DNA from: an uncultured Bacteroidia bacterium
GTDB taxonomy: Bacteria > Bacteroidota > Bacteroidia > NS11-12g > UBA9320
Assembly: GCA_943787465.1 (NCBI GenBank)
Contig: CALSMN010000004.1
Coordinates: 248,001-312,000, forward strand
DNA length: 64,000 nucleotides
Direction: 5' to 3'
Shown here: in pieces, positions 24,285-44,105 of the stretch
How the letters are laid out: each line of letters begins with the position of its first letter
Numbering within the stretch: the stretch's first letter is position 1
Notes under the pieces: model-generated
Databases searched by the model: none
What the model saw: the letters and a program-made list of their open reading frames with translations, nothing else
Told to the model about the DNA's origin: nothing
Translations under genes and position numbers: made by a program

Positions 24285-24288
24285 AGTG

Positions 24289-24389
24289 CTTATTAAGAAA
24301 GACTGAGGGATTAGGCCCATAGAAGTCTTGGCAACCTGAATTTTACCTCGTCAAGGTGCCACATCCTATCCCACGAAGGGAAAGATAAG
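24289..24389 (+). promoter_or_regulatory. SAM-I (S-box) riboswitch
   Basis: The block has the S-box core in order: the P1 stem CTTAT (24289-24293) pairing with ATAAG (24385-24389), then GACTGAGGGATTAGGCCC, a GAAGTCTTGGCAACC segment, AAGGTGCCACATCC, and GGGAAAGATAAG at the end. It binds S-adenosylmethionine and turns off methionine genes. No clear terminator hairpin lies between it and metH (37 bases), so control of translation start is more likely than termination. Confidence 0.93.
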
Positions 24390-24425
24390 TTTTCTATACC
24401 CCTAGCCACCCCTCAACCTATAGTT

Positions 24426-27084
24426 ATGAATAAAAAAATAGCCAATTATTTGCGCTTGAGTGGTCTAGAACCCCTAGTTAAGTCCCCCAATATAAATTTT
24501 ATGAATATTGGGGAACGAACCAATATTACAGGATCCAAAAAATTTGCTAAACTTATATTAAATAATCAATTTGATGAAGCGGTTGACGTCGCAAGACAAC
24601 AAGTTGAAAATGGAGCACAAATCATTGATGTAAACATGGATGAAGGTATGCTCGATGGGAAGGCAGCAATGATTCAATTTTTAAACCTCATTGCTGCAGA
24701 ACCGGATATTTCTCGGGTACCTGTTATGGTAGACTCCAGTAAATGGGAAATCATAGAAGCAGGTCTTAAAGTCATTCAAGGAAAGGGAATTGTCAACTCC
24801 ATTAGTCTCAAGGACGGAGAAGCAGAGTTTATTCGACGTGCTAAAAAAATCAAGTGGTATGGAGCAGCTACCGTAGTAATGGCATTTGACGAAAATGGTC
24901 AGGCTGATACTTATCAAAAAAGGATAAACATCTGTAAACGGAGTTACGACATTTTAGTAGATATCGTAAAATTCCCTGCCGAAGATATCATTTTTGACCC
25001 TAACATTCTTACCGTAGCCACTGGAATTGAGGAACATAATAATTATGCCGTAGACTTCATTAATGCGACTCGTTGGATTAAAGAAAATCTTCCTTTTGCT
25101 AAAGTAAGTGGCGGGGTAAGCAACATATCCTTCAGTTTTAGAGGAAATAATATCATTCGAGAAGCCATGCATTCGGCCTTTCTTTATCATGCTATCAAAG
25201 CAGGATTAGATATGGGAATTGTAAATGCAGGAATGATTGAAGTATATGAAGAACTTCCCAAAAATATTCTTGAAGCTGTCGAAGATGTATTGTTAAATCG
25301 GCATGATGCAGCCACAGAAAATCTCATCATTTTGGCAGAGAGTGTAAAAGGGGATGGGAAAAAAATAGTTCAAGATTTAAGCTGGCGAGAAGAAAATGTA
25401 TATGAACGATTAAAACACTCCTTGGTCAAAGGAATAACCGAATATATTGAAGCAGATACCGAAGAAGTCAGACAACAATTGGATAAGCCCATTGAAGTTA
25501 TCGAAGGCCCATTGATGGCAGGCATGAGTGTCGTCGGCGATTTGTTTGGTAGTGGGAAAATGTTTTTACCTCAGGTTGTTAAAAGTGCTCGCGTAATGAA
25601 AAAATCCGTAGCTTACTCTACAGCCCTACCTTGAAGCAGAAAAAAGTGGAGGAAATACTCAGGGGAAAATTCTCATGGCAACGGTAAAAGGCGATGTCCA
25701 CGATATTGGAAAAAACATCGTGGGTGTTGTACTGGCGTGTAACAATTACGAAATTATCGACTTAGGAGTAATGGTGCCTACCAATACCATCATAGATGCT
25801 GCGATTGAACATCAGGTAGATATCATCGGTTTGAGTGGCTTAATCACACCCAGTCTCGATGAGATGGTAAACATCGCTGCTGAAATGGAACGAAGATCAT
25901 TATCCATCCCAATACTTATTGGAGGAGCAACCACATCGAGAATGCATACGGCTGTGAAAGTGGCACCCGAATATTCAGGACCAGTGGTACACGTTCTAGA
26001 TGCCTCCAGATCTGTTCCCGTTGCTGGTCAGTTAATTGGTCTGAAAACAAAAGATACCTTCACAGCACAAATCCGAAAAGAATACACCGAACTAGCTATT
26101 CAACATGCGGCAAGGCAATCTGAAAAAACGATACTCTCCTATATGGATGCCAAAGCAAATCGTATTTCAATAGATTGGGAAAATTACACCCCACCACAGC
26201 CCAAGAAGCAAGGCATTGAAGTTCTTGCTGATTTTGATCTTGGAACGTTACGTGATTATATTGATTGGACCCCTTTCTTTTCTACGTGGCAACTTAAGGG
26301 TAAATACCCACTCATTTTTGAAGATGCTTACGTAGGTAATGAAGCCAAAAAATTATTTAAGGATGCCCAACACATGTTAGACCAGCTAATTACCAAAAAG
26401 CTGCTAACAGCCAACGGGATAGTTGGAATATTTGAGGCCTATGAGGAAAATGGAGACATTACGTTGCCCCAAGAAAATTTTACATTTCACTGTCTTCGTC
26501 AACAGCGCAAAATGGGTACTCATATTCCGAATTTATCATTGGCTGACTTTATTGCTCCTAAAACCATTTCCCAAAAAGACTATTTGGGAGCTTTTGCTGT
26601 GACAACTGGTGTCGGTATAGAAAAAATAGTAGCAGAATACGAAAAAGACCACGATGATTACAACGCCATTTTAGTAAAAGCTATTGCCGACCGATTGGCA
26701 GAAGCATTTGCAGAATATTTACACCAGTATGTTCGAAAAAAAATGTGGGGATATTCCCCCAACGAAGTACTAAACAATGATTTACTCATTCGAGAAAAGT
26801 ACCGTGGTATTCGCCCTGCTCCTGGGTATCCTGCATGTCCTGATCATTCCGAAAAAGCAAAACTATGGAAGCTTTTAGATATCGAAAATCAAACAGGGAT
26901 TAGCCTCACGGAGAGTTATGCCATGTACCCCACTGCAGCCGTCTCGGGATTTTATTTTTCTCATCCCGAAAGTAGATATTTTGCCGTAGGAAAAATAGGA
27001 GAAGATCAGCTAATAGACTATGCAAAACGAAAATCAGTAGATTATACTATCGCAAAAAAATGGTTGGGACCTAATTTATTCTAA
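24426..27084 (+). CDS. metH: Cobalamin-dependent methionine synthase lacking Hcy domain, frameshifted
   Basis: MetH moves a methyl group from methyl-tetrahydrofolate to cobalamin and on to homocysteine. This gene starts at the pterin domain ([16 protein letters not shown], about 20-35) and lacks the homocysteine/zinc domain, as in split MetH systems of Bacteroidota where a separate protein supplies it. Later come the cap helix [30 protein letters not shown], the cobalamin motif DVHDIG, and the activation domain ([28 protein letters not shown]). The frame breaks: the first part ends at TGA 25632-25634, while skipping one base at about 25616-25617 restores [18 protein letters not shown] and runs to 27084 (about 885 residues). 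The gene is under SAM riboswitch control. Confidence 0.92.
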
Positions 27085-34782: not shown

Positions 34783-37593
34783 TCATAACTTAAAAACTAT
34801 CCCAAATAATAACTGTCGAAGAGGTTGATAGCGTGCAGGATTATCTGGCGATATGCCATTTTCTTCTGGACCCAAATAGCGTTCATCTCTCCAATTATTT
34901 GGCACATCATCGCCTGGCTCCCATGCTCTACCCGTTATCGGATTAATGATTTGTGATCGTTTGTTATTTAACACATTTCGAATCTCTATACTCAAGGTGA
35001 CTCCTTTATTTTTTTTACTCGCAAATGTTTTTGTGAATTTAAAATCTGCATTCACCCATGGAGAGGCTCTCTTTGCTAAAAATGCGCTTAAATCTGTTGC
35101 ATATTCTGGTCTTCCAAGTGCATTATATCCTTCTAAAAGCATCGGCGTATATCTAAATCCACTTTGATAGGAAAAACTAGTATATAATTGAATACCTTTC
35201 ATCCACTTAGAATAGTAATAAGCTGTTGTATCTACTGAAAAAATATTCCCCAAATTGATATTCCAAGGTCTATCCCAGGCAAGATAATTTTCCGTACTAA
35301 GAGGAACTTCGCCGTTTTGAGCTATTTGCAAACTACTTTCTCTCGCACTATTACTTTTGCCTTTAGCTAATTGATAAGCTACATTGCCAAAAAGTCTAAC
35401 TTGACGTGTAATTTTCCAGATGACGTTAACCTCTGCCCCTTGAACTTTAGCATAATCCTGATTGATATACATGGTTTTACTCACAGGTCTTCCTGTTTGG
35501 TCATTAACGATGACCTTTCTGCTGACGATATAATCAAACCGATTGTTATTATAGGCTGCTAATGTCAGACCGATATTTTTACCTAATTGAGATTTTAAAC
35601 CAATTTCATAAGAAATATTTACCTCAGGGTTCAAATCTGGATTTCCTAGAAATGATAAAAAACTTCTATCTTGATACACAGGATCTAAACCTGCATACAA
35701 AAATCTTGGATGAGGTAATCGCATACTGTGGGTGTAATTAAAATACAGTACGTTATTACTTGTCACAGGAAATGAAACATTGACTTTAGGCAGCACCCTT
35801 GCTTTGTAGCGAAGCCCAAATAACTGCATTGTATTATTCAAATAATCCTCTCTTACCTGGTTTATGACAGGAGCCGTTGGATTATTAACAGCATCATCTG
35901 CAAATTTACCTGGTGCCCAGTAATTAAAACGTAAACCAAGATTTGCTATGATTCCTTTGTACGCTATTTTATCGCTAAAGAATATTCCCCCGTTATTTGG
36001 TTTTGCCCGCCAAATATCATTACTGGATCCAATACTAATACTGGGTGTTGTCACACTATCACTAATTACAATTGGTGCTCCAACCCAGGGTCTAGTCACA
36101 TCTACCCATTGGTACTGATTAAGCTTTTGTTCCCAGCCAAAGTTAATTTGATGGATGTCATTAGATGGATAATATTTGGCATTGACTTTTAGGGTATATT
36201 CTTGTGCGTAATGATCATGCCAAATCGGACTAATCCCCCCATTATTAATAAATCCAGGCCCAGGAAGTACAAATTGAATATCATCCCTAGGATTAAATAC
36301 TTGAACGGGATTTGTTACAATACTGTACTCATCATATACCTGATCTACCGATTGATTTCTAAAGGGCCTACCGTTGGCATCTGCTCTTAAATTGGTAAAT
36401 AAACGACCAATTGAAAAAGTAGCTACTAAATGCTTGTTTATACTTCTACGGATATTTAAAGCTGTGAGATTTGAATGATGCGTATACGTTGTTGCATTAT
36501 CTAATTTTAAACTTCTTTCAAACTGGAAACCAGGACTTAGTATAGCATCAAATCCAACAATTTGAAGAGTACGAGTATTTTGATTTATGGTTAAACTATG
36601 TTGATTTGTGATAGAAATCTTAGTCTTTGGGTTGATTTCATGACTTATTTTAAGAGTATGGGTAAATTGATTTGACTGACGAGGCGACCATATACTATCA
36701 TTATTCCCCAGGATAGAGCTATGTAATTGATCTGCGGTAGGTCCAAAATAATCATCACTTAAATTGAATGTTGCGTTATTAAAAAAATAAAATGATTTGT
36801 TTTTTATTTTGAATTTACCTCCCAAGGAAATTTCACCTAAATCAGTATTCCAACCCATAATGGAAGCATTACTAAAATTATCGCGTTGATAACTACCTGA
36901 GAGTTGCAACTTATCTGAACCCTCTTTGATTGTAGTACTAATGACTCCAGCTGTGCCTCCATCATGCTCTGCACCCGCACCTCCAGTAATTAGTTGTAAT
37001 TCCCCAATCGAACCACTAGATACTTGCACCCCAAAACCCGTGCCAGCTAAGGGATCTTGAGCGCTGATATTATCAATATTAAATGAGGTCTCATACACTC
37101 TTGCTCCTCTTATTTGTATACCATCTGAGGATTTTGAAACTCCAGCTTGAAGGGCAACTACTTCTTGAACGTCTCTAACATTCATCTCAGAAATATCCTT
37201 TTTATTTAATGTGATGGAACTTTTAGCGTCGTCAAGTTCTATTATTTTCTTTTCTCCTATGACTTTAACCGTTTCAAAGGTATTTGTCTGAGGAATCATC
37301 CTCACATTTAATAGGGTATTTATACCCCTTTTAATATCAATATCATTGTAAATTTTTTGTTGATACCCTATAAAGGATATGTTTATTGAATACCTGCCTG
37401 GTTTGATGTTTTTAATGACAAAAGATCCATTCTCATCCGAAATTGCAGCTCCGTATGTTCCTACCACTCTTACATAGGCCCCCACTAAATTTTCATTTGA
37501 ATTTTCATCAGTGAGCTTACCGCTTAAACTCCCAACTTGAGCTTGAGTTAATATGGCAATGAATAAAAATATGCTACCAATTAAATACCTCAT
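34783..37593 (-). CDS. TonB-dependent receptor with CarboxypepD-like domain
   Basis: A 936-residue outer-membrane receptor. After the signal peptide (ending LTQAQ) comes a carboxypeptidase-like regulatory domain (about 22-105: GSLSGKLTDENSNENLVGAYVRV, GRYSINISFIGYQ). The plug follows (about 120-240: VQEVVALQAGVSKSSDGIQIRGARVYE), then a 22-strand-type barrel with the TonB-receptor C terminus. It lacks the long SusC signature and has no SusD neighbour. It is the last gene of the four-gene operon from 43371 and overlaps the lipoprotein gene by 20 bp. The substrate is unknown, and the two secreted partners argue for surface assembly or binding rather than simple uptake. Confidence 0.9.
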   Translation of the reverse strand: MRYLIGSIFLFIAILTQAQVGSLSGKLTDENSNENLVGAYVRVVGTYGAAISDENGSFVIKNIKPGRYSINISFIGYQQKIYNDIDIKRGINTLLNVRMIPQTNTFETVKVIGEKKIIELDDAKSSITLNKKDISEMNVRDVQEVVALQAGVSKSSDGIQIRGARVYETSFNIDNISAQDPLAGTGFGVQVSSGSIGELQLITGGAGAEHDGGTAGVISTTIKEGSDKLQLSGSYQRDNFSNASIMGWNTDLGEISLGGKFKIKNKSFYFFNNATFNLSDDYFGPTADQLHSSILGNNDSIWSPRQSNQFTHTLKISHEINPKTKISITNQHSLTINQNTRTLQIVGFDAILSPGFQFERSLKLDNATTYTHHSNLTALNIRRSINKHLVATFSIGRLFTNLRADANGRPFRNQSVDQVYDEYSIVTNPVQVFNPRDDIQFVLPGPGFINNGGISPIWHDHYAQEYTLKVNAKYYPSNDIHQINFGWEQKLNQYQWVDVTRPWVGAPIVISDSVTTPSISIGSSNDIWRAKPNNGGIFFSDKIAYKGIIANLGLRFNYWAPGKFADDAVNNPTAPVINQVREDYLNNTMQLFGLRYKARVLPKVNVSFPVTSNNVLYFNYTHSMRLPHPRFLYAGLDPVYQDRSFLSFLGNPDLNPEVNISYEIGLKSQLGKNIGLTLAAYNNNRFDYIVSRKVIVNDQTGRPVSKTMYINQDYAKVQGAEVNVIWKITRQVRLFGNVAYQLAKGKSNSARESSLQIAQNGEVPLSTENYLAWDRPWNINLGNIFSVDTTAYYYSKWMKGIQLYTSFSYQSGFRYTPMLLEGYNALGRPEYATDLSAFLAKRASPWVNADFKFTKTFASKKNKGVTLSIEIRNVLNNKRSQIINPITGRAWEPGDDVPNNWRDERYLGPEENGISPDNPARYQPLRQLLFGIVFKL

Positions 37594-39028
37594 TCAATAT
37601 TTTAGATACTACTCGGTTTAAATTATCAGGTAGCTTATCCAATTTATGCAATTCTACGGTAAATAAAACCATATTTACTTGCCCTGAAGACGATTTCCTT
37701 TGGATAGCTATAGTTTTGGGGCCACTCCATCCTCCATTTGGAGTTAGTTGAGCTTCATATAATACTTCTGCTTCTTGTGAATGATAAAAAGGATCAATGG
37801 CTAACAGAAAATTAGTGGGTTGTAAATCAGGATACCCTAATATTGGACTTTTAGCTAAACTGTCATTTACAAAAAATGCTTGACCTTTTGTGCTGGTAAA
37901 GCTATCTATAGACATGACATCACCTATGATATCTAGACTGGCTCCCGTAGAAAAAGCTGTTGATATTAAAACTTTTTTATTTTGGTCAATTAATTTTTGA
38001 ATAATTGGAGCAGCAAAATCTAAGAGTTTACCATCAGCTCCCGTTAAGGGATTACTAAAATTACCCTCGTCAGTATGAAAAAATACTTTGTCATACTGAC
38101 TGGCTAGCAACTTAAAACTAGGATCCCAAAACTTAGGTTGATTTAATCCTTTATTACCAGCAAAATTTACGTAGTCTGCATGAATATAATTCTCGTTCAC
38201 AAGATTTTTATACAATTGTTGGATTTTTTCATTGTGACCTCCTACAACCAATAAATCTGAAGTTTGGGGACGAACATAAAGCACAGGAGTACTATCTATA
38301 TTACTTGTAGCATCCGCAATATCTTGTACTTTAAGTTGGAGGATGTTTTCTCCACCGTTATTGAAATCATCCAATGTTATTGATGATACGTTATTCAACC
38401 CATAGTATATTTTGGCTTTACCTGATCCTATTTGAGCTGGATTTTCGGATATCACAGTGATTAGTTTTTGATTCAAATCTATTGGAGTCCAATTGCCTGC
38501 ATTAGCTCTAATAAAGCACTTTTTTAGTGTTTCATCTCCATCTGGATCAGAAGCCATATATCTAAAAGTAATTACAAGATTAGTGGTATCTAATGGTAAA
38601 GAGGCCTGCTCAAAAGAGACTTTTGGTATACTATTTTTAAGTGGAATTTTAAGGTAAGCTGGAGATGGATCTACAAGTCCTTCATTATCCACGGAGCGAA
38701 CATAGAATTCGATATCTGTTGAATCTTGATTGGCATCAATCTGAAATAAAAAAGTGCTGTCTTGTACTTTTGTTTTGATCCAATCACTATTACCAATACG
38801 AATTTCATAATGTTCAACAAATCCGTCTAAATCAGTTCCATACCACGTTAAATATACCGTGCTGTTTAACCGATTTTCTCCAAAAAGATTTATTCGTTCA
38901 AGAGATATCTGAGTTTCTGGAGGTACATTAGGCAAAAGCTCCCCCTCCTTACAATGAGAAAAAAAAAGGGGCAAGGCTACAAATAAGATAACCTTGCTTA
39001 AATTTTGATATGCTTGTTTAAAAATCAA
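37574..39028 (-). CDS. Lipoprotein with Fn3-like repeats and a possible Rossmann/GATase-like domain
   Basis: A 484-residue lipoprotein (signal ending FSHC, Cys26). Two Fn3/Ig-like beta modules (about 38-230) contain TVYLTWYGTDLDGFVEHYEIRI and a YMASDPDGDE motif. The next 230 residues look alpha/beta: DLLVVGGHNEKIQQLYKNLV, then YDKVFFHTDEGN, then NKKVLISTAFSTG. That order resembles class I glutamine-amidotransferase-like or flavodoxin-like folds, but no catalytic triad is apparent. It is placed between the T9SS protein and the TonB receptor with overlaps on both sides (4 and 20 bp). No known function. Confidence 0.7.
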   Translation of the reverse strand: MIFKQAYQNLSKVILFVALPLFFSHCKEGELLPNVPPETQISLERINLFGENRLNSTVYLTWYGTDLDGFVEHYEIRIGNSDWIKTKVQDSTFLFQIDANQDSTDIEFYVRSVDNEGLVDPSPAYLKIPLKNSIPKVSFEQASLPLDTTNLVITFRYMASDPDGDETLKKCFIRANAGNWTPIDLNQKLITVISENPAQIGSGKAKIYYGLNNVSSITLDDFNNGGENILQLKVQDIADATSNIDSTPVLYVRPQTSDLLVVGGHNEKIQQLYKNLVNENYIHADYVNFAGNKGLNQPKFWDPSFKLLASQYDKVFFHTDEGNFSNPLTGADGKLLDFAAPIIQKLIDQNKKVLISTAFSTGASLDIIGDVMSIDSFTSTKGQAFFVNDSLAKSPILGYPDLQPTNFLLAIDPFYHSQEAEVLYEAQLTPNGGWSGPKTIAIQRKSSSGQVNMVLFTVELHKLDKLPDNLNRVVSKILNEVFNW

Positions 39029-41241
39029 ATTTTAACAAACTTAGTTGATCGTTTTATCCCAGCATGATCCATGTATTCAAATACATACATGCCAGGATCA
39101 AGTGATGATATATTGATAATGGCTTCCTTTACAATTGACTCATTCCTCATTGTTTTCCCTTCAATACTTTTAATAGATATGATTCCATTTGTAGCATTGT
39201 TTAATTTCACATGTAATATATTTTGAGCAGGGTTTGGATATAAGCTAAAGCCTATTTTTTGGATATCGTGAATGTTATTAGTCGCTGTGTCTTTTGCATA
39301 GTCTGTAGTTTCTAATGCCAAACTAAATCCGACAATATCATCATTATTTCTAGGTTTTAAAGCATACTGACCAAAGCCATAATAGAGAACTCCAATAATG
39401 GCATCCATATCCATGTCTTTGGTTGCTTCTATCGCTGGTACTTCCATAATTCCATCTATAGTTGCAAAGGTGTCATTAGAAACAACTGAAACCCAAAGAG
39501 ATGAGTTATTATTACCATTTTTTACTCCCGTTTGAACCTTGGTGCTGTTGTTAAAATTTGCACCCGTATCATTGGCTACCAACCATTCTCCAAATGGATT
39601 TAATCGAGGGTTTGATATTTTCACTTTACCATCAGCATTTACTAGTTTAACAAGCATGCCCTCATACTTTTCTAACCCTCTATTGATTCTTCCTGCACTA
39701 TCGCTTACCGGCAATTCAATAGGCATAATTTCAGTGGTATTCCCTGTTTTGGATACTGTATTTACAATCATTTGAGTAAACCCATAGCTCTCCTCAATCG
39801 TTCCAGTCACCTCCACTTCCTCAGTTCTCCATAATTCTAGTAAATCTGAACTTCCAGACAATCTCAATCCACCCCAAGCTGTTGCATCTTTATCTTGAAT
39901 GTATACATCCTCTAGATCATACGGTTTTGCACTTGCCGTTACATAACCCTTGACTGTTACGATTTGATCTCTATAAGGACTTGCATCTGAGGATGGGTCT
40001 AGAACATATTGTATATCTTGAATCGTTAGGCCAGCATCTCTTATCGTATAAAATGCAGTAGATCCGTCTGCTTTACTTGCAGAAAATGGCTCATAACTAA
40101 TATTGCCATCATTATCCGTAGCCTGAATATAGTATCTAACAATAGTTCCATCTGAAAATGCTGGAATCATTGCTTCGTATTCGTCAGTAGTCCCTGATTT
40201 AAGAGACAAAGCTACTGATGTAAAATCAGCATTCGATTTATTTAAATCACTAGTGTAAAATAACTTTTGGTTGGCCACTGTACCATTAAAATCGATAATC
40301 TTAGCTGATATTGTAGCAGAAGTTGAACTATTGGGAACTAAAGGATTTCTTTTCACTTCAGTTATACTCGGTGGAGTATCGCCTACTTTATAATGGCTTG
40401 TATCAAAAGGGTGCAACTCATATCCTCTACCTACACCTCCTGAACAACCATTTTCAGAGTGCATGATGATACCGCTAAGAGATTCATATTGGGTACCTAC
40501 AATGGGCGCAACAAATTCGCCAGCATTTTTAGGGCTTGATGGATTTACCAAAGTTCTAGCTGGTAATTTTTGGACTAAAAAGCGATCTGAAACATTAATT
40601 AGATTACCATTTTCATCTGATACATCGAAACTTACTCTATTCCCTTGAAATATATTTACTGCGACTACAGTTACATTAGAAAATTTCACGAAAGAGCCTT
40701 CCCATTCTTCACCAGTTACATAATTATTTGTTCGTGTATTATCATTAAGTTTTCCCAAATCTAAAGTCTCAGCAGATGGAGCGGTAACCGAGCCAATCAC
40801 CTTTACAGATGAATTATCCGTTGGGAATAATTGTGTTTCACCTTGATAATTAGAAACCGTACCGGTTACTTCAATAACCATTCCTCTTACTAAATTATTG
40901 AGTGTTGTAACAGGTTGTGATTGCCCCCCTCCATCGGTATATACGCCGTGGATTTGAAGCCCTCTGAAACTACCCATACCATTGGAGGCCGTATCCAAAA
41001 TATGAACACCAGGTCTATATCCTCCATTCACCGACCCAGAAGATAGCTCTGTTAAATTACCATCATGCATGACAATACCTACAGTGGTTACTTCTTTGCC
41101 ATCATATGAACTTAAATCATTGCAATTTGCTAAATCAGTTGCATTAACAAATTGTATGTCGCTGACAGAGACAAAATTTTGAGCTAGTGATATATGTCCA
41201 ATCAATAATCCAAATAATAAAATTGTAAGTTGTTTTTTCAT
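39025..41241 (-). CDS. Large secreted protein with two OB-like modules and T9SS type A domain
   Basis: A 738-residue protein with a signal peptide (ending ISLAQ, about residue 20). Two related segments start VSDIQFVNATDLANCNDLSSYDG (about 26) and IQDIQYVLDPSSDASPYRDQIVT (about 404). Each is followed by the G-x-V-x-EVTGT-x-YG-TQ pattern of DUF5689-like OB folds. Between them lies an Fn3-like domain (about 290-395, YYIQATDNDGNISYEP). The C terminus is a type A T9SS domain (LYPNPAQNILHVKL, GMYVFEY). Such OB-containing T9SS proteins are common in Bacteroidota, but their ligands are not known. It overlaps the lipoprotein gene by 4 bp. Confidence 0.8.
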   Translation of the reverse strand: MKKQLTILLFGLLIGHISLAQNFVSVSDIQFVNATDLANCNDLSSYDGKEVTTVGIVMHDGNLTELSSGSVNGGYRPGVHILDTASNGMGSFRGLQIHGVYTDGGGQSQPVTTLNNLVRGMVIEVTGTVSNYQGETQLFPTDNSSVKVIGSVTAPSAETLDLGKLNDNTRTNNYVTGEEWEGSFVKFSNVTVVAVNIFQGNRVSFDVSDENGNLINVSDRFLVQKLPARTLVNPSSPKNAGEFVAPIVGTQYESLSGIIMHSENGCSGGVGRGYELHPFDTSHYKVGDTPPSITEVKRNPLVPNSSTSATISAKIIDFNGTVANQKLFYTSDLNKSNADFTSVALSLKSGTTDEYEAMIPAFSDGTIVRYYIQATDNDGNISYEPFSASKADGSTAFYTIRDAGLTIQDIQYVLDPSSDASPYRDQIVTVKGYVTASAKPYDLEDVYIQDKDATAWGGLRLSGSSDLLELWRTEEVEVTGTIEESYGFTQMIVNTVSKTGNTTEIMPIELPVSDSAGRINRGLEKYEGMLVKLVNADGKVKISNPRLNPFGEWLVANDTGANFNNSTKVQTGVKNGNNNSSLWVSVVSNDTFATIDGIMEVPAIEATKDMDMDAIIGVLYYGFGQYALKPRNNDDIVGFSLALETTDYAKDTATNNIHDIQKIGFSLYPNPAQNILHVKLNNATNGIISIKSIEGKTMRNESIVKEAIINISSLDPGMYVFEYMDHAGIKRSTKFVKI

Positions 41242-41250
41242 TTCGTATGT

Positions 41251-43371
41251 TTATTTAATAATTGCAAATTTTCCTTTAAATAGTTCTCCTGTATACAAAT
41301 CTTTAACGGTAAAAAGATAGATACCTCTGGCAATAATTTGGGTGTTCTCTGTCAAGAGATCCCAGGCATGTTCTCCTCCGCTAAAGACATTATCATCGTC
41401 ATTTTCAGAGCCAAATGTTTGATTCCATCGAATATCATTGCCATTATAATTTTGATCATGTGTTATCTTATCTAAAAAATCACCGGCTAATGTGTAAATG
41501 TAAATTTCACAGTGTTTGGGTAAATTAGCAAAATATAATTTTCTGCTTTGCTCTTGAAAACTACTTTTACCCTCCCAACTTGCACCAGCATAATACGGGT
41601 TTGGATAGGCAAATGGTTCATTTTTAGTTAGATTTTCATTGACAGGCTTTCCTGCAAATGCTCTGAAATTATTTGAAATTGCACTACTTTCAAGGCTTTC
41701 AAGGTTATTTTCATCATTTCCTTGGTCAAATGCTGTTAAAGAAACAGCATATTGCCACCCATTCAAAACTTGATCTATCGTATATTTATAGTAATATGTT
41801 ACTCCGTCTATTATAACAGGCTTATCTAATAAAACAGAAGCAAAACCAGTCTCATGGCCATAGCCATTATCAGGCAAATCATATTCCGCAATTTTGACCA
41901 AATCTCGCTGTAGATTTGGAACATCCGTCACATCAAAACCTAATCTGGTCAAATAAATACGATACCCCTCGAAATCCATTTTTTGACTAATAGGATCTAT
42001 ACTATACTCCGCATTCTTGGTCCAATAAATCTCGATTTTATTCTCTGAGGTTACCATTTTTGTCTCAGGGATTTCGGGTGGAGACGGAAGAACAAAACGG
42101 GTTAATTTCCCATCACCATTATTATCTTCTCCAGCATCTAGTATCCCATTAAAATTTTTATCTTCTCCATTATATGCCGTTTGAGCCCATTTAGCATTGG
42201 CTAAAAATGTACTTTTTTGAATAGCATTATTTTCTGCATTTGGATTCCCATCTTCTTTCTTTTTTGCAAAAATATAGGCATAACTTACCTTGATATGATC
42301 ACCTGGGGCAACGTTTAAAAAAGGTCCAACGGCGACTAAGTCTGAACGATTTCCTAATCCATTCAATTGTTCTTGATAACTCTTGGATCCACAACTAGGA
42401 TTGGTCGTGTTATTTTCATCCCAACAGGGATGATCATTTAGCCCCTTTGTTAATTTTTGATATCGTGTATTATCATTGGTTGGTTGAAAATAAATAGGAT
42501 CCGAGGTACTATTAAACTGCCAAGCATTGTAATGAACATTAAATCGAGGGTTGGATCGAGGATGTTGAAACCCATTCTTATCTTGTGCTCCCAAAAATTT
42601 CTGTCCCACATAACTATTTGTAAATCCTTCATCACCTGAATGATCATAACAATAAGCCATTTGTAGTGAGTCTATAAATCCATTTCCCCCTTTATTATAG
42701 AAAGCAGCACCTCCACTTCCTGCAGGCGTAATATTAATATTTCTAACAACTGTATTAGCCCAAAGCCCAAAATAGGCACTATCCAAGATATAATCACCTA
42801 TATTCTCAATATCAAAATCGAGAATCACAAAAAAATCACTAAAACCGTAATTCCAATTCAATGAGCGAGATGTAACTTTTACTTTCAATGGATCAAGGTG
42901 ACCGCCTATCTGTATTTGAGTACCTGGCACTTGTACATTAACATCGGAATAACTACTTAAAAAATCTTGATGAGATAAAGCATCTGGACTATAGTAAGGA
43001 CTATTTCTAAGAGAGGACAATTCAACTAGAACATCCCCAATCTCAGGATAAAATTCAAAACCAGCAGCACCTGTACTATATCCTTGAGGTGCATCAACAG
43101 CAGCAGTACTTACGCCGACATTAGAACCATTAATCAATCCTCCAAACCAAATACCACTCTCAAATAGATGTTCCACGCCACTTCCAGCAGGATATTCTCC
43201 AGATGGGTTACCTGTACCGTTTTTGTATCCTCTAAACGCATTACCAAAAGTTCCAGAATTAGTAATATTCATCCTGATGTTTGATGCTGTTGTCGTTTTT
43301 TCATCAAAAGTTTGACCAAAAACCGGATTGGTTAGCAAAAAACAAATTATAATTATTAGAATGTGTTTCAT
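41251..43371 (-). CDS. Large secreted protein with FlgD-like/T9SS-like C terminus
   Basis: From ATG 43371 the protein has 706 residues and a clean signal peptide MKHILIIIICFLLTNPVFGQ. A start at 43389 would overlap the likely -7 box. The N-terminal part (SGVEHLFESGIWFGGLINGSNVGVS) and LDSAYFGLWANTVVRN are features I link to large uncharacterised secreted proteins of Bacteroidota and Ignavibacteria. A calcium-loop-like stretch, DKNFNGILDAGEDNNGDGKL, lies near 405. The C terminus (NPYYAGASWEG ... IIARGIYLFTVKDLYTGELFKGKFAIIK) resembles an FlgD-like Ig domain acting as a T9SS tail. It is first in the four-gene operon. Function unknown. Confidence 0.78.
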   Translation of the reverse strand: MKHILIIIICFLLTNPVFGQTFDEKTTTASNIRMNITNSGTFGNAFRGYKNGTGNPSGEYPAGSGVEHLFESGIWFGGLINGSNVGVSTAAVDAPQGYSTGAAGFEFYPEIGDVLVELSSLRNSPYYSPDALSHQDFLSSYSDVNVQVPGTQIQIGGHLDPLKVKVTSRSLNWNYGFSDFFVILDFDIENIGDYILDSAYFGLWANTVVRNINITPAGSGGAAFYNKGGNGFIDSLQMAYCYDHSGDEGFTNSYVGQKFLGAQDKNGFQHPRSNPRFNVHYNAWQFNSTSDPIYFQPTNDNTRYQKLTKGLNDHPCWDENNTTNPSCGSKSYQEQLNGLGNRSDLVAVGPFLNVAPGDHIKVSYAYIFAKKKEDGNPNAENNAIQKSTFLANAKWAQTAYNGEDKNFNGILDAGEDNNGDGKLTRFVLPSPPEIPETKMVTSENKIEIYWTKNAEYSIDPISQKMDFEGYRIYLTRLGFDVTDVPNLQRDLVKIAEYDLPDNGYGHETGFASVLLDKPVIIDGVTYYYKYTIDQVLNGWQYAVSLTAFDQGNDENNLESLESSAISNNFRAFAGKPVNENLTKNEPFAYPNPYYAGASWEGKSSFQEQSRKLYFANLPKHCEIYIYTLAGDFLDKITHDQNYNGNDIRWNQTFGSENDDDNVFSGGEHAWDLLTENTQIIARGIYLFTVKDLYTGELFKGKFAIIK

Positions 43372-43386
43372 TCCGCTTAAGAAAAA

Positions 43387-43394
43387 CAAATATA
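43387..43394 (-). promoter_or_regulatory. Putative -7 box for the four-gene surface operon
   Basis: On the minus strand this reads TATATTTG, an exact TAnnTTTG match, 15 bases before the preferred ATG at 43371. Confidence 0.42.
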
Positions 43395-43427: not shown

Positions 43428-44105
43428 CTAAAATTTTGACTTTGGTTTAGTTACATATACGGTCTTAATATAGTTGGGTTCATAGGATTCTAAATCAACA
43501 AATGTTTGGCTTTCCCAAAGATCATTAGCTTCAATTAGCATGTGTCGGGCATACAAACTAGATTGAACATGATTATAATCTGATTTATCTAATTTTAATT
43601 CTGCCATAAATTTAGCTGCACCTGAACCAACAACTGCTACATGTTTATTGGGTAATTTTATATCTGAATTGATGGTAACAAAAGTTTCATCTTGATGTAT
43701 ACGAAGTGCTTCATCATATTGGCCCATGTATGCATCCATTCTGCGTGCATCTATGAGAGAAATAATATGTTTTGCACTAGGATATTCTATTCGAGCCAAT
43801 TGGGCTAGAGCTTTGAGTGTAGAAACAGCAATTAGTGGTATACCCGCTCCAAAACACAACCCTTTGGCAAGACTACATCCTATACGAAGCCCCGTGTAAG
43901 AACCAGGACCTGCACTGATAGCAACAGCATCTAGTTGACTTGCCGTCAAACCATTAGATTTAAGTACATCCGCTACAAATGGAGCCAAATACAAGGAATG
44001 AGCATTAGGCTCAAGTATAGCCTTTTCTTGAATAATTTTACCTGACTGTGTTAAAGCTACCGAACAAATTTCACCAGATGATTCTAAGAGAAGTAAGGAA
44101 GACAT
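43428..44105 (-). CDS. tsaB: tRNA threonylcarbamoyladenosine synthesis protein TsaB
   Basis: TsaB is the inactive Kae1-like partner of TsaD/TsaE in making t6A at position 37 of ANN-decoding tRNAs. The 225-residue protein shows LLLESSGEICSVAL at the start, NAHSLYLAPFVADVL (about 34-48), and the family signature AISAGPGSYTGLRIGCSLAKGLCFG (about 63-87). Its start shares one base with the stop of the upstream hypothetical gene (44105), so lpd, that gene and tsaB probably form an operon. Confidence 0.93.
   Translation of the reverse strand: MSSLLLLESSGEICSVALTQSGKIIQEKAILEPNAHSLYLAPFVADVLKSNGLTASQLDAVAISAGPGSYTGLRIGCSLAKGLCFGAGIPLIAVSTLKALAQLARIEYPSAKHIISLIDARRMDAYMGQYDEALRIHQDETFVTINSDIKLPNKHVAVVGSGAAKFMAELKLDKSDYNHVQSSLYARHMLIEANDLWESQTFVDLESYEPNYIKTVYVTKPKSKF

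Follow-up and report, generated by a model that had tools for sequence, protein, structure and literature searches.

A six-part outer-membrane gene set of Bacteroidota, genetically linked to secreted nucleases, as a candidate importer of extracellular nucleic-acid products

The attachment complex of the type IX secretion system (T9SS) is composed of PorU, PorV, PorQ and PorZ, and PorZ is held by PorQ. SusCD systems combine a surface lipoprotein with a TonB receptor that carries a CarboxypepD domain. Another scheme is described in PMC13142918, where the receptor XusA of Bacteroides works with the seven-bladed propeller lipoprotein XusB as a lid and where the vitamin B12 importer BtuBG is placed beside it. 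Here we analyse four genes, designated A, B, C and D, at positions 34783-43394 of a 64,000-nucleotide stretch of an uncultured Bacteroidia bacterium (assembly GCA_943787465.1, contig CALSMN010000004.1, positions 248,001 to 312,000; hereafter the window). An earlier note, made from the sequence of the window, had read them as a four-gene surface operon, distinct from SusCD, which might assemble a surface complex or handle an unknown ligand. The unusual non-SusCD surface operon stands, but its extent has to be revised, since the unit consists of six parts, A to F. Judged from gene order and inheritance, A-B-C-D make up four of the six core components of a single outer-membrane machine, and we regard it as almost certain that the six form one functional unit. 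The recurrence of secreted nucleases in genetic linkage with the system points to a role in capturing fragments of extracellular DNA or RNA and bringing them into the cell. A description of this gene set was not found in the literature searched, the coverage of which excluded closed-access papers and preprints.

The comparison with known systems reveals partial likeness to each of them. With XusABC the set shares a TonB-dependent receptor with a CarboxypepD-like N-terminal domain (D) and a beta-propeller lipoprotein that is putatively exposed at the surface (F). Unlike in that system (PMC13142918), no DUF4374 protein or PepSY reductase was seen here, and the present set has in addition two secreted proteins, a further lipoprotein, a barrel of the PorV/PorQ family and the link to nucleases. 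BtuBG, in the same description, also has a receptor with a propeller lipoprotein lid. It differs from the present set, which has T9SS parts and no cobalamin riboswitch in five sources scanned (the window and the loci L211, L074, L172 and L161, where only an S-adenosylmethionine (SAM) riboswitch and tRNAs were found), and because of this absence a B12 importer was rejected or at least lowered in rank. In the window a SAM riboswitch (RF00162, 69.1 bits) is located at 24287-24391, immediately upstream of an open reading frame (ORF) at 24426. A SusCD locus was rejected as well, in line with the earlier note: despite the shared surface lipoprotein and CarboxypepD-bearing receptor, the A-D locus contains no SusD or glycanase among the eight proteins scanned with Pfam (A, B, C, D and neighbours), nor any SusD-type family among A, B, C and the neighbours. 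The T9SS attachment complex is resembled by a barrel of the PorV/PorQ family (E; 138.9 bits for NF033709, cut-off 90) and by A, which has distant members with a C-terminus like that of PorZ. However, E scores far below the equivalog cut-offs (52.3 of 250 bits for PorV, 78.6 of 220 for PorQ), and A is not PorZ, as the C-terminus of one distant A matched PorZ only weakly (26.2 of 260 bits). An accessory complex of the beta-barrel assembly machinery (BAM) was also considered and rejected; according to the partial descriptions on which this comparison was made, BamG and BamH are other proteins, with different subunits and folds. Extracellular nucleases of the ExeM/NucH type have an OB region like that of B, and lamin-tail and OB modules occur in genes linked to the set, whereas B has no catalytic domain and catalysis would sit on separate proteins. 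In the DNA-degradation loci of Izemoplasmatales, as described in PMC8289736, secreted nucleases are clustered with nucleic-acid-binding proteins, lamin-tail proteins and importers; these loci use ABC transporters, and TonB is not mentioned in the main text.

In relatives of the window genome, A-B-C-D is followed directly behind D by E and then by F, an NHL beta-propeller lipoprotein. The order A-B-C-D was kept in all 19 loci fetched from the window's family, as far as the contigs reach. At a threshold of E <= 1e-100, 88 of 296 genomes of the phylum match A, the window's own genome included, and 40 loci of other classes were fetched from these 88. A, C, D and E are ordered on one strand in 36 of the 40; two exceptions (L157, L167) are ended by a contig or region end, and two (L185, L186) have A-B only, D being on a different contig in the genome of L185. 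Where a locus has A, D, E and F, each at more than 75% coverage, the four are collinear in every case (55 of 55), with pairwise distance correlations of 0.83-0.95. All six genes are contiguous in Acidiluteibacter ferrifornacis (L074), Thermaurantimonas aggregans (L079), Salibacter halophilus (L089) and Schleiferia thermophila (L098). The conserved synteny by which the earlier note proposed to judge the operon is therefore present, the A-B-C-D order being shared by the window's family and the majority of loci from other classes; the homologues are not scattered without a shared neighbourhood, and even dispersed genes still co-occur.

In the window genome itself, E and F overlap and lie apart from ABCD at C4:174046-176219; on this contig, some 107 kb separate them from the end of D that carries its stop codon (C4:282783). 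Profiling of E across the class is confused by PorV/PorQ paralogues, and five PorV-like genes are present in this genome alone. NHL repeats were recognised in F of relatives with 34.7 and 33.3 bits (cut-off 20) and in the window genome's F with 19.2 bits, just below; the start of the latter (...LLISSCEGF) contains a lipobox as read by eye. The separated E-F pair adjoins a TamB-like gene and lies about 5 kb from a tsaD-like gene, likewise recognised by eye (L211 3617-4360, 5196-9038).

To follow the inheritance of the set, 346 genomes of the class, each at least 90% complete, were searched with profiles of A, C, D and F. A was detected in 81 of them, F in 80, and C and D in 79 each; all four occur in 76, and at the thresholds used none of these 346 genomes had C, D or F outside the A set. 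Under random draw, which ignores shared ancestry, log10 p of the co-occurrence is about -76 to -78. In many families the genes are dispersed over contigs, for instance in genome G401 with A on C14, D on C7, F on C15 and C on C16; in dispersed genomes the E-F pair persists and often the A-B pair. That scattered genes still occur together is strong evidence for a joint function of the parts. In other classes, D was compared between 40 of the 88 genomes matching A at the above threshold and 40 genomes with weak matches only: D reached at least 986 bits in 40 of 40 A-positive genomes, and the A-negative ones peaked at 413 bits, a gap that was read after the search, in counts uncorrected for shared ancestry. 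Loss as a block was also observed, as genus g4 of the window's family is without A, C, D, F and the nuclease gene N described below (four genomes tested).

The second line of evidence concerns secreted nucleases. The gene upstream of A was scored in 75 of the 80 named loci, the five with less than 1.5 kb upstream of A being left out. In 48 of them an EEP-type protein, N, is encoded directly upstream of A on the same strand; to these comes L073, where the EEP gene overlaps the stop-to-stop frame of A. N is a secreted protein of about 430 amino acids with EEP-type residues and a T9SS tail. In L113 and L120 its slot is taken by a PLD-type protein with DUF5689 and a T9SS tail, L084 and L088 have unrelated genes upstream of A, and the other 22 loci are of the window's family type, with tsaB upstream of A in the loci examined. 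At the opposite end of the operon, in other classes, the gene behind F codes for an EEP protein that passes the PF03372 cut-off in L251, L253 and L237; in L174, L236, L238 and L239 the EEP assignment of this gene comes from a profile match. In L252, L254 and L255 the position is occupied by a nuclease combining OB and PLD parts. Nucleases behind F were found in 9 of the 20 downstream stretches fetched, plus L174, while most of the remaining stretches have none. The linked proteins of both types carry Por_Secre_tail. That nucleases of two unrelated folds share slots, and that one fold turns up at either end of the operon, argues for a functional link of the nucleases and not for hitch-hiking. 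At L251:2016-5306 and L253:1921-5178 the EEP nuclease is followed by another large secreted protein, either lamin-tail/ExeM-like or with DUF5689 plus PLD.

N was detected in 27 of 40 A-positive and 3 of 40 A-negative genomes (p 2.8e-8); the genomes (40 of the 81 A-positives and 40 A-negatives) were picked for spread, part of the negatives by absence of C only. In the window genome N lies at a third site, C4:207856-209130, apart from both ABCD and E-F. An alignment of 15 N sequences has invariant YN, E, DxN and SDH residues, which we take to have catalytic roles, and the window genome's N scores 481 bits against the profile of this alignment. Within the system the linked nuclease is an accessory and not a core part.

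In the window, the four genes are arranged as the earlier note had claimed. They are minus-strand ORFs encoding A (41251-43371, 706 amino acids counted from the ATG), B (39025-41241, 738), C (37574-39028, 484, with an uncertain TTG start) and D (34783-37593, 936). A longer alternative ORF for A begins with TTG at 43389. A and B are spaced by 9 bp, B and C overlap by 4 bp, and C and D by 20 bp. The -7 promoter box TATATTTG of the operon, on the minus strand at 43387-43394, is located 23 nt ahead of the ATG of A, within the short gap behind tsaB (43428-44105), which precedes ABCD. The shared box was borne out in the genus, where it occurs 20-27 nt before the ATG of A in 8 of 8 loci; the background frequency of the motif in the window is about 0.78 per kb per strand. 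Since the box is kept at this distance, ABCD probably has its own promoter.

The reading of D as a TonB receptor with a CarboxypepD-like domain holds, with CarboxypepD-type domains and the barrel (76.5 bits, cut-off 27) above the Pfam cut-offs and the plug just under its own (23.3 of 23.9 bits). D is single-copy in the window genome (1835 bits, next match 84 bits), and its nearest solved structure is XusA (9gbc, 65.5 bits over 6-250). B had been described as an OB-module T9SS protein. The T9SS part is well supported by a type A sorting tail at its C-terminus (Por_Secre_tail, 34.3 bits with cut-off 27 and 37.8 with cut-off 23); the Pfam match for OB is sub-threshold. Overall, B corresponds to a T9SS cargo type with OB-type regions and an Ig-like segment. 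It matches ExeM/NucH (NF033681) with 61.2 bits over 430-639, short of the cut-off of 300 and covering the N-terminal OB part only; a catalytic nuclease domain is absent. Further matches are the N-terminal part of the EEP nuclease 9sf9 (E 1.1e-5, model 403-542) and the nucleic acid-binding lipoprotein 3f1z (E 0.008, positions 29-140). B changes at a far higher rate than either A or D. In L161, L163, L164, L184 and L189 a gene between A and C has an OB-type layout and a T9SS tail and was missed by the B profile, and the operon in L062 (12140-15599) has two tandem copies of B (317 and 770 bits).

For A, no Pfam or NCBIfam family was matched and profile searches against PDB gave nothing significant. 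An FN3-like segment was read by eye at about 425-560, and the C-terminal tail (YPNPYY...KGKFAIIK) resembles FlgD-Ig and T9SS sorting tails. The FlgD-like tail, already noticed in the window, is kept in 28 of 28 aligned relatives. Por_Secre_tail was not detected in the window's own A, and distant relatives match TIGR04183 weakly (16.1 and 17.4 bits, cut-off 23). An A-like C-terminal part (model about 425-708) also occurs in larger proteins of other-class genomes (G131:C16, G170:C5, G174:C7, G252:C75), several in frames of 1100-1300 amino acids, within about 2-4 kb of D-like receptors of 331-392 bits. Pairs of this kind may belong to a broader A-plus-D family whose members handle different ligands.

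C, likewise, matched no Pfam family. Its characterisation as a lipoprotein with an alpha/beta domain agrees with a lipobox-like FSHC, read by eye, and with the structure model (predicted local distance difference test (pLDDT) 78.4, predicted template modelling score (pTM) 0.71), which comprises two FN3-like domains and a class-I glutamine-amidotransferase/ThuA-like domain. Residues 256-484 correspond to the class-I glutamine-amidotransferase fold with Z 13.6 and 3.2 A over 177 residues; this assignment came from VIA-align, whereas Foldseek on C alone ranked FN3 chains on top. In the aligned C sequences only the lipobox cysteine is nearly invariant, and no invariant or near-invariant cysteine exists outside it. 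An active amidotransferase was therefore rejected, the nucleophilic cysteine not being conserved, and the modelled fold without this cysteine makes C probably a binding module.

From operon structure, synteny, co-inheritance, nuclease linkage and domain matches we infer a physical complex, the docking of its parts, its cargo and the direction of transport. Nucleic acid outside the cell would be cut by EEP- or PLD-type nucleases. The T9SS would export B, perhaps together with A, for retention at the cell surface, where the tail of A may dock on the PorV/PorQ-like E, as PorZ does on PorQ, and the OB domains of B may hold strands cut by N or the PLD protein. F could form a propeller lid on D, as XusB on XusA and BtuG on BtuB, and C, with FN3 domains and a non-catalytic amidotransferase fold, could serve as a further lipoprotein for docking or capture. 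D would then import oligonucleotides or nucleotides with TonB energy. By analogy to XusAB and BtuBG, a lipoprotein-assisted TonB-dependent importer is likely. Nucleic-acid products as its cargo are assumed with moderate confidence, at about even chances, and to this extent the 'unknown ligand' of the earlier note can be narrowed. The best explanation as a whole, a six-part machine importing products of extracellular nucleic acids, we likewise consider an evenly balanced proposition.

Several observations weigh against this explanation. The strong conservation of the single-copy D is unusual for a nutrient receptor. With isoelectric points of 4.65-4.77, A, B, C and F are all acidic proteins in their mature form, which argues against plain electrostatic binding of nucleic acid. 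No nucleotidase or nucleoside transporter was noticed by eye beside dispersed D or E-F. The structure model of A, built on too shallow an alignment, is uninformative (pLDDT 49.6). N of the window genome and of near lineages stays below the PF03372 cut-off, and its EEP identity is based on homology to distant members passing PF03372, on the conserved residues and on a weak match to Nocturnin. Furthermore, the nuclease is not obligate, as 13 of 40 A-positive genomes have no N and many other-class loci no adjoining nuclease, and a count of nuclease proximity of 67 versus 3 is inflated because the nuclease hidden Markov models were seeded from adjacent genes.

Among the other explanations, two appear unlikely to a similar degree. 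The same machine might import a siderophore, a metal complex or a vitamin, D being of the XusA/BtuB type, F a lid of the XusB/BtuG type and the nucleases bystanders. XusA as the nearest solved relative of D, the seven-bladed propeller lid known for XusB (PMC13142918) and a partial match of D to the siderophore receptor model TIGR01783 (50.7 bits, cut-off 223.5) fit this idea. However, the XusA match is confined to the generic N-terminal domain and plug, a cobalamin riboswitch is absent from the five sources, and both the nuclease linkage and the nuclease-type OB regions of B would be left unexplained. Alternatively, D could power the assembly or export of A and B in a device for surface biogenesis or secretion, comparable to Oar, the TonB receptor to which such a role is assigned for Myxococcus (PMC6434023), or to an attachment complex like PorU-PorV-PorZ-PorQ. 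The PorV/PorQ membership of E, the weak PorZ-like tail match in a distant A, the high conservation of A and D (77% mean column identity within the window's family) and the all-or-none inheritance suit such a machine; its loss as a whole from numerous genomes within the class, those of genus g4 among them, does not, and the nucleases are not predicted by it.

Much less probable still is an ordinary nutrient operon conserved by descent only, with a coincidental adjacency of nucleases. The nuclease-adjacent named loci are mostly of related families, so that their counts are not independent, but the end of the operon at which EEP sits differs between lineages, PLD takes its place in the same slot, and dispersed genes still co-occur. 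Uptake of intact DNA for natural transformation instead of nutrition, the least probable of the explanations weighed, would agree with the link to nucleic acids, and we know of no outer-membrane DNA route for these bacteria, which counts in its favour. Yet no competence gene was noticed by eye beside the system, and donor DNA would be destroyed by the secreted nucleases.

Extracellular DNA is a major source of phosphorus, nitrogen and carbon. Bacteroidota are prominent DNA degraders in sediments, according to PMC8289736, and an account of how DNA products cross their outer membrane was not found in the literature searched. Tentatively, and with somewhat less confidence than in the import of nucleic-acid products, the present set may be viewed as a nucleic-acid utilisome, a counterpart to SusCD in which OB and nuclease proteins exported by the T9SS, on a PorV/PorQ-type barrel of their own, supply a propeller-lidded TonB receptor with oligonucleotides from DNA or RNA for passage through it. 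Such a system would be phylum-wide and obligately co-inherited; it would have existed in early Bacteroidota and have since disappeared, as a whole, from many later lineages. A six-part unit that genomes retain or lose as a whole, two of its parts lacking annotation, offers a concrete gene set, and the contiguous operon has named, apparently isolated carriers in the four species listed above. Even with a different cargo, it would represent a widespread receptor architecture uniting T9SS export and TonB-dependent transport.

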